From the NCBI RefSeq assembly GCF_023277745.1, contig NZ_CP086322.1, forward strand, positions 744,001-808,000: a DNA stretch of 64,000 nucleotides. Direction: 5' to 3'. Below, one piece after another: positions 48,836 to 62,011 of this stretch. Both the position numbers and the translations under genes were made by a program. Within the stretch, counting starts at the first letter, position 1. Every line of letters begins with the position of its first letter. Source of the stretch: Streptomyces halobius. Its GTDB lineage: Bacteria > Actinomycetota > Actinomycetes > Streptomycetales > Streptomycetaceae. The notes below the pieces were generated by a model. That model was not told where the DNA came from. It saw only the letters and a list, made by a program, of their open reading frames with translations, and ran no database searches.

Positions 48836-48969
48836 GGGAATTGCATCTAACGGGCGAGAAACCGCAGGTCGCCAGTTCACGGCAAGAGGTTGAGGGACTC
48901 CAACGCTACTACCAACTAACAGCCTGATCAGGGAAGTTGCCCACACCATCCCATCTGATGCATGATCTG

Positions 48970-48986
48970 CCCTCCAGAAGGGAGGG
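48970..48986 (+). promoter_or_regulatory. Inverted repeat that could hide the recombinase ribosome site
   Basis: CCCTCC (48970-48975) pairs with GGAGGG (48981-48986), the probable Shine-Dalgarno of the gene starting at 48993. The stem would reduce translation of the recombinase unless opened. Confidence 0.5.
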
Positions 48987-48992
48987 TCTGGA

Positions 48993-50096
48993 GTGGTGCA
49001 TCAGCGCAAGGTGGCCCTGGCTGGGGCAGCTCATCTGGAGCTCGTTTCCGGGGTCGTCCAGTTGCGTCCTGAGGACGCGATGTTCGACGCGATGCTGCGG
49101 GGTTGGCGGGCTCAGCAGAAGTCGCGGGGGCTGCAGGACGAGACGGTTGACGACCGGGAACGGCTGGTCCGCCGGTTCTTCGAGTTCACGAATGAGTACC
49201 CGTGGCAGTGGACACCGGGTCACATGGATGAGTGGTCGGCCTCGTTGACTGGTGAGAAGCATCTGGCGCCGTCCACGATCCGCAGCTACCAGGGCGATGT
49301 TCGCCTGTTCACCGAGTTTCTCATCGATGCCCGCTACGGATGGGGGCCAGCTTGCGAGGAAGCCTTCGGCACCGGGCCGGTGGCGATCGCTCATGAGTGG
49401 AACACCCTCCCGCACCTGCAGGACTATGAGGGTGACCCGGAGGCGAGGCCGTTCACCCGCGAAGAGCTGCAGCGTTTCCTCGACTACGCCGACGACCAGG
49501 TCGATCGTGCCGTGAAGTCCAAGCGCAAGGGAGCCCTCGCTGCCTACCGCGACGCCACCCTCTTCAAGGTCATCTACGGCTGGGGACTTCGGCGGACCGA
49601 GACGTCCAAGCTGGATGTGGTCGACTTCGGGCGAAACCCGAAGGCTCCGCAGTTCGGCCGGTACGGCACGCTCAACGTCCGCTACGGCAAAGCGAAGAAG
49701 GGCCAGCCGCCACGGCGCCGGAACGTGCTGTCGGTGATGGACTGGGCCGTCGACGCGGTCGCCGACTACGTCGAGAACGTCCGGCCGCGATTCGGGTTCC
49801 CCGATCATCCGGCTCTCTGGATCACCGAACGCGGGGGACGCCTCCAGCCCGGTTCCATCAACGACCGCTTCGAGGCATACAGGGATGCCCTAAAACTCCC
49901 AAAAGATCTAGTTCCGCACTCAATCAGACATTCTTACGTCACGCATCTGACCGAGGACGGGGTCGACCGGCGCTTCATCCAGCAGCAAGTCGGCCACGAG
50001 TGTGACAGCTCCACGGCCATCTACACGCACGTCAGCGACGACTTCGTGAACACTGCCCTGAGCAAGGCCCTGGCCCCGGCGTTCGCCGGCGTCTGA
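48993..50096 (+). CDS. Tyrosine recombinase of element A
   Basis: 367 residues from GTG 48993, chosen because it aligns with the start of the element B recombinase (both ALAGAAHLxLV / DLAGAAHLMLV). N-terminal SAM-like core-binding domain (YPWQWTPGHMDEWSASL, then STIRSYQGDVRLFTEFL). Catalytic domain: Arg in GWGLRRTETSKL, HSIRHSYVTHL, then QQVGHECDSSTAIYTHVS with the Tyr. All catalytic residues are present, so it should be active in integration and excision of element A. Confidence 0.88.
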   Translation: MVHQRKVALAGAAHLELVSGVVQLRPEDAMFDAMLRGWRAQQKSRGLQDETVDDRERLVRRFFEFTNEYPWQWTPGHMDEWSASLTGEKHLAPSTIRSYQGDVRLFTEFLIDARYGWGPACEEAFGTGPVAIAHEWNTLPHLQDYEGDPEARPFTREELQRFLDYADDQVDRAVKSKRKGALAAYRDATLFKVIYGWGLRRTETSKLDVVDFGRNPKAPQFGRYGTLNVRYGKAKKGQPPRRRNVLSVMDWAVDAVADYVENVRPRFGFPDHPALWITERGGRLQPGSINDRFEAYRDALKLPKDLVPHSIRHSYVTHLTEDGVDRRFIQQQVGHECDSSTAIYTHVSDDFVNTALSKALAPAFAGV

Positions 50097-50111
50097 CGAG
50101 GAAGGACCGAC

Positions 50112-58527: not shown

Positions 58528-60896
58528 GCGCATCCTCACCCACGGCCCCGTCCACCGTCGCCCGGCTCGCCGCGCAAGCCGCCCGTCTGAAAGCTGCGAC
58601 GGACGCCGTCGTCGGCCACCTCACTGCGGCTCTGCCATTGCTCGACGGTCAAGCAGCTGAGGCCGCGCTGGTGACCGCGGCCCCGATCCCTACCCGCGGG
58701 GCAGCCCGCTACCTGGAGGAACTCGCCGCCCACCTCGCTGGCCACCCGGACGCATTGACCTCGGGCAGCTCCCTCTGTCCACCAGTGCTGCTGCGGCTGG
58801 CCCAGGTGCTACACGAAGCCGGATATCCAGTTGTCCGCCCCGGATGCGCGCATTGCGGAACGATCCGGACTGACCTGCGGCAACTCCGCACCGAAGGGCG
58901 GCTCTGCGGCTCGTGCGACGCCCGAAGCCGCAAACGCGAAACCTGCGCACGCTGCCACCGTGACGGCCAGCGCGTCGTTGCCCGGCGCCCCGAGGGCCCG
59001 ATCTGCAATCGCTGCTACCGCGCGGACCCCGCCACGTTCGAGGGGTGCGCCGACTGCGGGCAGCTTCGCCACCCGGTGGTACGACGGGACGACGGCCGAG
59101 GGCTGTGCATCAAGTGCTGGAAACGCCCCATGCACACCTGCGTGAGCTGCGGAAAGACGGCAGCCGCGGCCCTCGTTGACGACGACGGCGCACTCTGCCA
59201 CCTCTGCTACAACCGCCATCGTCGACCACGGCGGCTCTGTGGTCGGTGCGGACAGCTCAAGCGCATCGCCCGCAACGCGCGCGACGGGCAGCTGGACCTC
59301 TGCGACGGCTGCTACCAGGGCCCCGACGCGACCTGTTCGATCTGCAGCCGGGTCCGCCCCTGCGCCAGCCGCGACGAGCAGGGACAGCCGGTCTGCGCCA
59401 CCTGCTACCAGCGTCATCGCACCGGCGAGCCGTGCGCCCGCTGCGGCAAGACCAAGCCCAGCACCACCCGGTGGCCCATCGGGCCGGTCTGTCACGTCTG
59501 CTACACCGCCGTACTCCGGTCACCAGCCGAGTGCCCCCGCTGCGGCACGGTCCAGCCATTGATCGCGCGCGATGAGGAGGGCTCCGAGGTCTGCGGCCCC
59601 TGCGTCGGCTTCGCCGCCGACTACACCTGCAAGCAGTGCGGCCGGTCTGGCAACCCCCACAGCCGCGGCCGATGCGCTCACTGCGTCCTCGCTGAACGGG
59701 TCAACGCCCTGCTGGCTGGCCCCGACGGCACGGTCACCGCACAGTTGGGACCACTCGCGGCCGCGCTGGCGGACGCCCCCTCACCGTTCCCCGCCATCCA
59801 GTGGCTCAAGGAGAGCCCGAACACCAAGCTCCTCGCCCGGCTGGCATCCCAAAGGCACGAGCTCAGCCACGAGCTGCTGGACGAGCTCCCACCCAGCCGG
59901 AACCAGCGCTACATCCGCCAACTCCTTGTCCACACCGGAATTTTGGAGGAACGCAACGAGGACCTCGAACGCATCCCCGGCTGGCTGGAGCACGAGCTCG
60001 CGGACAAGCCGGCCACACACGCCAGTCTCGCCCGTCCATTCCTGCACTGGTTCCTGCTTCGGCGAGCACGCCAACGGGCCGCCATACGTCGCCCCCCCGC
60101 CTCCGCCGACCGCGACCTGCGGCGTCGCGTCAGCGTCGCCCTGGACTTCCTGGCCTGGATGGACCAACGTGGCCTGGCCCTCACCGACCTCGCCCAGGAG
60201 CACATCGACGACTGGATTGCGGGGGCCACCAGCCAGCGGCGCTACCTGATCCGCTACTTCCTGAAATGGACCACGAGCCGTCGGCTCACCCGTGAGCTGA
60301 CCGTCCCCTCCATCCCGAGCCAGGAGCCCCAGGACCTGCTCGACGATGAGGATCGCTGGCGGCTCCTCCAACGCTGCCTGACCGACGATGCCCTGCCGAC
60401 GGACGTCCGGGCCGGCGGCGCGATCACCCTGCTGTTCGGCGTGTCCACCGAACGTCTTTGCCACCTGACGCCTGAACACCTCAAGTTCGGTGACAAACAC
60501 GCCCACCTGGTCCTGGGCCGCCACCCCGTCCTACTACCCCCACGGCTCGCCGAACTCCTTCGGCGACTTGCCGAACAGCCCCAACTGCGGCCGCAGCTCT
60601 CGCGAGCCCACCCCGGTCCTCAGTGGCTCTTCCCGGGCATGGTCCCGGGCAAGCCGATCTCGACGCACGGCATGACTCAGAAACTCAACCGGCACGGCAT
60701 CACGGTTCGCACCGCACGCAACGGGGCGCTGGCTGCCCTCGCTGCTGATCTCCCCAGCCCGATCCTCGCCGACGTGACCGGGATGCACCGCCACACCGCG
60801 CTCCGCTGGGTCGCCTACGCCAGACGTGACTGGGCCGAGTACCTCGCTGCCCGAGCTGCGGACAAATCGGCAGACGCCGTTCAAGCCACCGACTAA
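58524..60896 (+). CDS. Zinc-ribbon array fused to a degenerate tyrosine-recombinase fold (element B)
   Basis: 790 residues from GTG 58524. About 110-400 carry 18 CxxC motifs, so nine zinc ribbons ([68 protein letters not shown]). The C-terminus has the recombinase layout with [15 protein letters not shown] at the first Arg position (Ser instead) and [20 protein letters not shown] at the Tyr position (Trp). The same losses as in element A argue for a selected, non-catalytic DNA-binding role. Confidence 0.8.
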
Positions 60897-60937
60897 CCTC
60901 GCGAGGTTGTTCTTCGCGCATTCAGGAGGAGACCGCC

Positions 60938-61904
60938 ATGGCCCAGCCATTCCCGCTCATCGAACCGTACGCGCACGGTCTCCTCGATGTCGGTGACGGC
61001 AACCGGATCTACTGGGAGACGAGTGGCAACCCCGACGGAAAGGCGGCCCTGTGCGTGCACGGCGGTCCCGGCAGCGGGGGCCGCCGCGGCAGCCGCAAGC
61101 TATTCGACCCCGAGGTCTACCGGATCGTCCTGTTCGATCAGCGTGGCTGCGGTGAGAGCCAGCCGCACGTCTCCGACCCGGCTGTCAGCCTCGATCACAA
61201 CACCACCGAGCACCTGATCGCCGACATGGAGCGGCTACGCGAGCACCTGGGCATCGAGCGCTGGCTCCTCTACGGCGGCTCCTGGGGCTCGACGCTGATT
61301 CTCGCCTATGCCGAGCGCTACCCCCGAGCGGGTCTCCGAGATCGTCATCGCCGGCGTCACCATGACCAGGCCCGAGGAGACCGACTGGCTCTACCACGGC
61401 GTCGGACGCCTGCTGCCCGGCCCCTGGGAAGCGTTCCGCGACGCACTGCCGGAGGCAGACCGAGGCGACAATCTCGTGGCCACCTACAACCGGCTGATGA
61501 ACAGCCCGGACGAGGCCGTCCGGGTCAAGGCCGCGCGGGACTGGTGCGCTTGGGAGGACGCCGTCATCGCCCACGAGGCACTCGGCAAGCCCGGCGCATA
61601 CAGCGACAAGCCCGACGACGCCCTGATGGCCTTCGTCCGGATCTGCGCGCACTACTTCGCAAACGACGCCTGGCTGGAGGACGGACAACTGCTGCGTGAC
61701 GCGGACCGGCTGGCCGGGATCCCGGCGGTGCTGATCCACGGCCGACTCGACCTGGGCAGCCCGCTGAAGACCGCATGGGAGTTGTCCAAAGCATGGCCAA
61801 ACGCGGAGCTGAAGGTGATCGACGACTCCGGACACACAGGCAGCCCCGCGATGCAGGACGCGATCCTGGAGGCGATTGCGCAGTTCGGCAAGAGCGGACG
61901 GTGA
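60938..61904 (+). pseudogene. pip: Prolyl aminopeptidase (alpha/beta hydrolase), frameshifted, element B cargo
   Basis: ATG 60938 after [19 protein letters not shown] oxyanion loop, nucleophile Ser in [18 protein letters not shown], then at about 61321 an extra C in a five-C run shifts the frame; the rest continues as [20 protein letters not shown] to the stop at 61904. It holds the catalytic Asp (IHGRLDLGSP) and His (DSGHTGSPAM). Repaired length about 320 residues, normal for the family, which removes N-terminal proline from peptides. Confidence 0.88.
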
Positions 61905-62001
61905 CTGGCTCCGCACTGCGCTGTGAGCTCCTCGCCTCAGAAGAGTGCCAGAGGACGGGAATAGCGCACGGTCGGAATAACCCCCTCCCGCCAGTACTGG
62001 C

Positions 62002-62011
62002 CGAGATCGGG
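62002..62011 (+). repeat. Right attachment core of element B
   Basis: CGAGATCGGG, nine of ten bases equal to the left core at 56900-56909. The single mismatch (A/T at the sixth base after C) resembles coupling-sequence differences left by tyrosine recombinases. Confidence 0.7.

Follow-up and report, generated by a model that had tools for sequence, protein, structure and literature searches.

Strand-biased circularizing integrative elements (SEs), which occur mainly in Gammaproteobacteria, are built around a core of IntA, Tfp, IntB and Srap that includes two catalytic tyrosine recombinases (TRs), and carry a 6-bp donor footprint to attR, according to their description (PMC10214605). GInts, as portrayed in the corresponding report (PMC5385486), rely on a ginABCD operon, whose products are three proteins of TR type plus a small helical one, transport cargo of 2.5 to at least 70 kb and target, for example, the end of ssb or an ABC transporter gene.

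The 64,000-nucleotide stretch considered here (the window; bases 744001-808000 of the 9.24 Mb, single-contig genome of Streptomyces halobius) contains two related elements, A and B. In the original prediction, made from the window sequence, both were assigned the same order of genes, encoding a TR, a small helix-turn-helix (HTH) protein and a large zinc-ribbon protein, an order with which Pfam matches (PF00589, HTH_26) agree. We propose that A and B represent a family of small TR transposons and that the insertion point of A-type elements in other TR genes lies between codons one and two behind the catalytic Tyr codon, an in-frame tail being added to the truncated protein. To this explanation as a whole, a probability of roughly 85% is given. 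The ends, the precise insertion, the target, the recent movement of A and the conservation of the gene trio were each established by sequence comparison, as presented below.

Elements A and B and their insertion sites

The two elements and the TR gene interrupted by A comprise the following features:

48127..48828, + strand: TR gene interrupted by A, through the catalytic Tyr codon and one further codon, ending ...LLGHSSVLTTELYV (blastx, 1.8e-6)
48829..53787, + strand: element A, 4959 bp (three copies, 0 mismatches over 4959 bp, differing flanks)
48829..48847, + strand: left end of A, AAGCCTCGGGAATTGCATC, an imperfect inverted repeat relative to the right end (alignment of 23 left regions)
48829..48927, + strand: substitute C-terminal tail provided by A, 32 codons and stop, continuing the reading frame of the interrupted TR (translation)
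48993..50096, + strand: TR of A, catalytic residues intact (PF00589, 5.5e-20)
50112..50882, + strand: cargo of A, GNAT acetyltransferase-like (PF00583, 1.3e-6)
50982..51332, + strand: HTH protein of A (HTH_26, 2.2e-15)
51329..53746, + strand: zinc-ribbon protein of A, 16 CxxC knuckles, with a C-terminal TR-like domain that has, by eye, lost the catalytic residues
53764..53787, + strand: right end of A, TTCCAATACCCGAGTGCACCATTA
53788..53913, + strand: remainder of the TR gene interrupted by A, in frame once the flanks are joined
56904..61996, + strand: element B, 5093 bp (an 848-codon frame is open across the joined flanks; the homologue L049 is contiguous there)
56966..58204, + strand: TR of B (PF00589, 7.5e-16)
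58201..58527, + strand: HTH protein of B (HTH_26, 4.5e-18)
58524..60896, + strand: zinc-ribbon protein of B, 18 CxxC knuckles
60938..61699, + strand: cargo of B, alpha/beta hydrolase with a prolyl-aminopeptidase-like N-terminus, frame broken (PF00561, 2.1e-19; TIGR01249 below cut-off)

Three copies of A, 100% identical to one another, were found in the S. halobius genome. They occupy three different TR genes, at the same codon position in each, namely, one codon behind the catalytic Tyr codon (TAY-NNN|; LLGH....TT..Y-x|). When these copies were aligned, identity began and stopped abruptly at the element boundaries, and in each case the interrupted TR gene resumed at the next codon at the right end. 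Since identical copies stand between differing flanks, A must have moved recently. The genome contains 33 PF00589 matches in all. The frame upstream of A in the window (48127..48828) matched NCBIfam XerC (1.7e-7) over residues 4-81 and PF00589 at just 0.0077, in its last 21 residues. The exact ends, the three identical copies of A and the position of both A and B inside recombinase genes all go beyond the original prediction.

The boundaries of A were fixed from 17 copies in the genus set (relatives of A selected by DNA match) that have both ends. In all 17, no stop interrupts the joined junction, and the right end is constant through ATTA, where the target frame resumes. The ends of A form imperfect inverted repeats (left, TCGGGAATTGCATC; right, complement, TCGGGTATTGGAAC); the direct and inverted repeats returned by an initial repeat search of the window did not correspond to any element end.

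An empty site was sought in 61 genomes, of which five, S. halobius itself included, gave matches at E 1e-30. One of these, the relative G058, carries an uninterrupted version of the gene targeted at locus L009. In G058, bases 1479-1878 correspond to the left flank of L009 (89.0%) and bases 1879-2278 to its right flank (88.75%). As the left match ends at 1878 and the right match begins at 1879, insertion neither duplicates nor deletes bases. Likewise, the joined target of L058 was found as uninterrupted genes on 22 Streptomyces plasmid records (18 at at least 80% coverage) and that of L055 in 68 phage records (16 at at least 80% coverage), with the listed matches being mostly annotated as integrase.

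A and B were suggested to be old, diverged members of one family rather than products of a recent duplication, and this holds: protein identity is 49% for the TR, 56% for the HTH protein and 29% for the zinc-ribbon protein, and the two elements reflect separate insertions. The GTGA overlaps noted for the core junctions are present at all three direct junctions (51329, 58201 and 58524), the TR/HTH junction of A being split by cargo. That cargo, in the form of the GNAT gene, and the hydrolase gene behind the zinc-ribbon gene of B are indeed unrelated and differently placed, as originally described. Full-length relatives, among those listed, match A at the DNA level except across the GNAT stretch. 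The hydrolase of B (60938-61900) looks broken, since a prolyl aminopeptidase start is continued in a different frame. With the B recombinase as query, the S. halobius genome yielded three equally scoring A-type recombinases and, at 41%, a fourth relative. The fourth, distant family member of this genome (L011:8935-13079, about 8.087 Mb) lies next to a gene that by eye is of the PAPS-reductase type.

Distribution, targets and gene content of the family

To assess distribution, 84,980 species, each represented by one genome, were searched with a left-end pattern that does not include the Tyr codon. This yielded 104 stretches, of which 80 were read as loci and 24 were not given as loci. Record titles place 77 of the 80 in Actinomycetota; L088, L090 and L103, not from actinomycetes, look like chance matches. 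A recombinase was detected downstream in 51 loci, 43 of which also offer at least 40 bp of flank (eight of the 80 have less than this). In the 29 loci with no detected recombinase, 12 have at least 1300 bp downstream, and these are decayed, unlike or chance matches.

Among the 43 copies with recombinase and flank, 30 lie exactly at a TR catalytic Tyr codon and five others in TR genes, the latter showing a shift (of 4 bp in L100, L120 and L124), frame break or masked bases. Five more interrupt ISL3 transposases at an RDR..AYA motif, and three were not assigned a target (L102, L112 and L135, with L102 by eye resembling a TnpB-type gene in opposite orientation). Considering all 72 left ends with flank, with or without a recombinase, 44 are exact TR insertions, six are other TR insertions and six are in ISL3 transposases. 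L113 passed the TR motif test, but inspection by eye showed a false match and it is not counted in the TR class, which includes additions made by eye (L070, L078, L079, L130, L139) or by blastx (L094, L100, L117, L119, L120, L124; the target codon of L119 is masked by N).

PF00589 was detected by Pfam in 36 of 62 upstream frames of at least 40 codons, and ISL3 models in three. In a leave-self-out blastx of the 43 upstream flanks, 32 gave a match, 31 of these ending at the boundary; in a control window 2.1-2.4 kb upstream, TR matches occurred at four of 23 loci, which is probably explained by clustering of TR genes. Of the 17 two-ended copies in the genus set, 16 matched TRs by blastx, the best match in four of the 16 being the same locus fetched twice and the match of L052 stopping before the boundary; the target of L044 is, by eye, an IS5-type transposase. 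The pattern and genus sets overlap (L049/L079, L050/L086, L053/L071 and L057/L127), and their counts are not additive.

The targeted TRs are diverse, with 51 targets forming 27 clusters at 40% identity. One viral contig in IMG/VR carries an element inside an integrase-like gene, as judged by motif, and on two plasmids of a single Mycolicibacterium strain, elements with identical annotated proteins interrupt two related TR genes, again at the Tyr codon. As A-type copies also lie within recombinases of same-family elements (L047 and L048 by tblastn; L070 and L085 by eye), the family targets its own members. In a subgroup from Pseudonocardia metagenome-assembled genomes (L089, L104, L113, L144, L097), left ends have a tail of their own and a TAC codon kept at the boundary, and TR active sites are not targeted; the downstream DNA of these loci is too short to show the recombinase.

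The original prediction proposed that the trio defines a family and suggested a search of actinobacterial genomes for the three genes. When such a search was conducted and many copies were compared to define ends and cargo, the genes proved adjacent rather than scattered: among the 29 copies found by pattern that have a recombinase and span at least 4100 bp, the trio is adjacent and ordered in 28 (L140 being the exception), and it is in order in all 20 genus relatives, where L045 keeps the recombinase end alone and the recombinase of L062 is split by several kb. In 20 further loci, it is ordered in all 17 with a recombinase match, three having no such match. These comparisons support a conserved three-gene mobile-element family. 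Relative to the left boundary, the TR match usually starts at 164-198 bp, with the HTH gene near +1285 and the zinc-ribbon gene near +1632.

Cargo varies among members and is found either between the TR and HTH genes, as is the GNAT gene of A, or behind the zinc-ribbon gene. For nine of 14 elements, the longest frame behind the zinc-ribbon gene, in some cases shortened, was tested and assigned to GNAT (three), SDR, YgbB (IspF type), DUF3626 and Imm21 (one each), with two giving no match. Two of these cargo genes lie on the reverse strand, namely, that of L056, encoding the YgbB-family (IspF-type) isoprenoid enzyme, odd for a small transposon, and that of L046, encoding Imm21.

Of 51 family members, 49-51 retain each of the six catalytic TR residues. 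The number of CxxC knuckles in the zinc-ribbon protein ranges from 3 to 19 across 50 members; 32 of these have 16, corresponding to about eight ribbons. Its last 286 residues, compared with a profile of diverse target TRs, matched over the catalytic domain (hhalign E 1.1e-5), as opposed to E 0.19 or worse for controls comprising the zinc part, the middle part and the HTH protein. The zinc-ribbon protein thus probably ends in a dead TR-like domain, the catalytic residues being lost by eye. Against solved structures, the zinc-ribbon profile gave five weak matches, all to zinc-binding proteins. A protein search returned 1109 relatives at E 1e-10 among 8000 candidates scored; in the best 120, source names are 'site-specific integrase', 'hypothetical protein' and similar.

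At exact sites, the left end extends the TR frame by at least 12 residues (reading was stopped at 50). The tail comprises 32 codons in 50 of 98 left ends read, a set that includes chance matches and doubly fetched loci. Over codons 1-13, variation is equally low at all codon positions, as in a DNA site; the remaining codons show weak constraint at the protein level.

Proposed mechanism and competing explanations

In the proposed mechanism, the recombinase would cut and join at the imperfect inverted end repeats by TR catalysis, while the HTH protein would serve in regulation. The zinc-ribbon array would read an extended, degenerate target of about 48 bp, from the LGH box to the Tyr codon, and the dead TR domain of the same protein would hold the recombinase, a role like that of Tfp or GinC in SE and GInt elements. 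The tail would allow the targeted integrase to keep some function, so that the element would be carried along by the mobile element to which the integrase belongs. If A is excised, its circular form would be expected to carry the junction ...CACCATTA-AAGCCTCGG...

Several points weigh against this explanation. Transposition, circles and the protein roles are predictions from sequence. The single target of B, an Arg box, and the targets of other lineages are unlike those of A. In three of the 43 copies (L100, L120 and L124), insertion is shifted by 4 bp, so that the tail would be out of frame, and 16 of the 72 left ends with flank, with or without a recombinase, remain unassigned. The assignment of the dead TR domain has 82% probability against diverse TRs, and comparison of the zinc-ribbon C-terminus with the elements' own recombinases by hhalign gave no match (E 0.27). 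Selection on the tail at the protein level is weak, with a pN/pS of 0.81 versus 1.08 and 1.40 in the other frames (18 tails). A 48-bp matrix of the target, considered below, demonstrates sufficiency only, since the TR training sites were included. As an observation on its own, the left boundary of L220 is likewise 4 bp off the usual place behind the Tyr codon.

The strongest competing view, to which we give somewhat less than even odds, is that insertion inactivates rival integrases, freezing the host element instead of sparing the integrase. The natural C-terminus behind the Tyr is replaced, and in known TRs this segment packs in trans; the weak selection on the tail also fits. Yet the recurrent tail length of 32 codons and retention of the Tyr codon at the exact site speak for an integrase that is spared.

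It could also be that the target is a short DNA motif alone (about ACCACCnnnGGCTACGCC), occurring by chance at TR and transposase active sites. A logo of 44 TR targets, in which the Tyr codon is fixed through the way of selection, revealed a preference for ACCACC and GGCTACGCC outside that codon, and the six ISL3 targets have much of GCCTACGCC in common. However, a 20-bp matrix applied at the median score found 72 sites across 548 kb, 27 of them passing the TR motif test (with a few more TRs recognized by eye), which is too unspecific to account for 35 of 43 copies in TR genes. With the 48-bp matrix, 45 of 48 hits passed, the remaining three being TRs by eye. Recognition of a short motif alone is accordingly considered unlikely, although DNA structure or another protein could assist it. 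Reading of the target by the zinc-ribbon array is a candidate explanation falling only slightly short of an even chance. More tentative still is the broader notion that a transposon lineage reads, at the DNA level, the active-site coding sequence of integrases that share little else, by means of a zinc-ribbon array covering about 48 bp of degenerate codons, and captures the integrase via a new C-terminus, so riding phages, plasmids and transposons.

Near-random insertion, with survival only where the integrase stays usable, would explain why the junction at the exact site is in frame with the tail; this was rejected as very improbable, given that three identical, and thus very recent, copies occupy the same codon despite only 33 PF00589 matches in 9.24 Mb, and that just three of the 43 recombinase-bearing copies are unassigned. 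Least probable of all, and equally rejected, is that the TR gene immediately preceding most copies, whose frame runs on into the left end, is a normal fourth gene swapped by recombination with no insertion, since the identity of A copies stops at the Tyr codon, the interrupted gene resumes 5 kb on at the right end, G058 holds the uninterrupted allele and some copies lie in transposases.

Other lineages, the recombinase nest and described systems

In a tree built by a quick method, and disregarding row L082, a mis-extracted frame, 21 rows corresponding to B-type, 2'-5' RNA-ligase-like-target and other-target members stand apart (95). The TR-target label requires 10 changes, as compared to 25.1 in shuffles, and ISL3 targeting is found at two points of the tree. 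Other lineages, as judged by eye, occupy the Walker A region of ComM-like (L207, L208) or kinase (L211) genes, RNA-ligase-like genes (L059, L061, L206) and an HNH-like gene (the B-type member in L047). The insertion point of B is in a large TR gene, directly after the Arg box (MRDSE|LAEIG), in a region of the window with these additional features:

55701..56903 (5' limit approximate), + strand: first part, up to the Arg box MRDSE, of the large TR gene that B interrupts (blastx)
61997..62983, + strand: large TR gene, second part (joined 848-codon frame)
62995..63483, + strand: coiled-coil protein behind the large TR (weak coiled-coil matches alone in Pfam/NCBIfam)

The joined region around B shares 34-39% identity by blastx with the targets of L078, L130 and L079, and neither part of the large TR gene had a Pfam or NCBIfam match. 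Removal of A and B in silico leaves one TR end, the 848-codon large TR frame and then the coiled-coil protein, which, from likeness by eye, is possibly a counterpart of TnpC/Srap. It looks, then, as if A and B interrupt recombinase genes of a third element; the nest, including a putative recombinase-like frame at 53981-55849, resembles a multi-recombinase element of the SE/GInt/Tn554 kind.

The original prediction knew of no described family of this kind, and our literature search likewise turned up no published family with this architecture or description of such an element, although an earlier account is possible, the subscription literature lying largely outside the search. Compared with the SE report (PMC10214605), the A/B family is like SEs in being TR-driven and target-specific and in having imperfect inverted repeats (TCGGGAATTGCATC / TCGGGTATTGGAAC in A) and a TR-fold protein that lacks the catalytic motif (Tfp in SEs). 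It is unlike SEs in having a core of one catalytic TR, an HTH protein and a zinc-ribbon/TR-like protein, and in that no 6-bp footprint was seen, given the ATTA right end in 17 of 17 two-ended copies and one base-exact empty site. With GInts, the family shares a conserved recombination operon, site specificity, cargo and a target gene C-terminus that can change, yet it differs in the same core composition, the word 'zinc' being absent from the GInt text (PMC5385486). Within the coverage of the SE report (PMC10214605), RIT elements contain three consecutive catalytic TR genes, whereas here the first gene alone encodes a catalytic TR, and the Tn554 family (TnpA, TnpB, TnpC) is set apart by gene content only; both are, like A and B, TR-based, and Tn554 also shares the lack of target duplication, as judged from the empty site.

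Given their insertion in other integrase genes, A-type elements look like mobile elements living on other mobile elements, with the active-site codon of other recombinases as main target and a wide presence in Actinomycetota. They offer a direct case of parasitism, and possibly control, among mobile elements, as well as a system for studying how a recombinase finds a degenerate, protein-defined site, potentially involving sequence reading by a zinc-ribbon array. Carrying small cargo (GNAT, SDR, YgbB/IspF type, Imm21 and others), they may account for some integrase-gene nests in actinomycete genomes.

The insertion sequences IS4321 and IS5075, which use an IS110-type recombinase and reside in the ends of Tn21-type elements, similarly take other mobile elements as target, in their case a terminal repeat rather than the codon of a protein active site. 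Inteins and introns also sit at conserved catalytic motifs and are spliced out, whereas a gene entered by an A-type element is truncated and given a new end.

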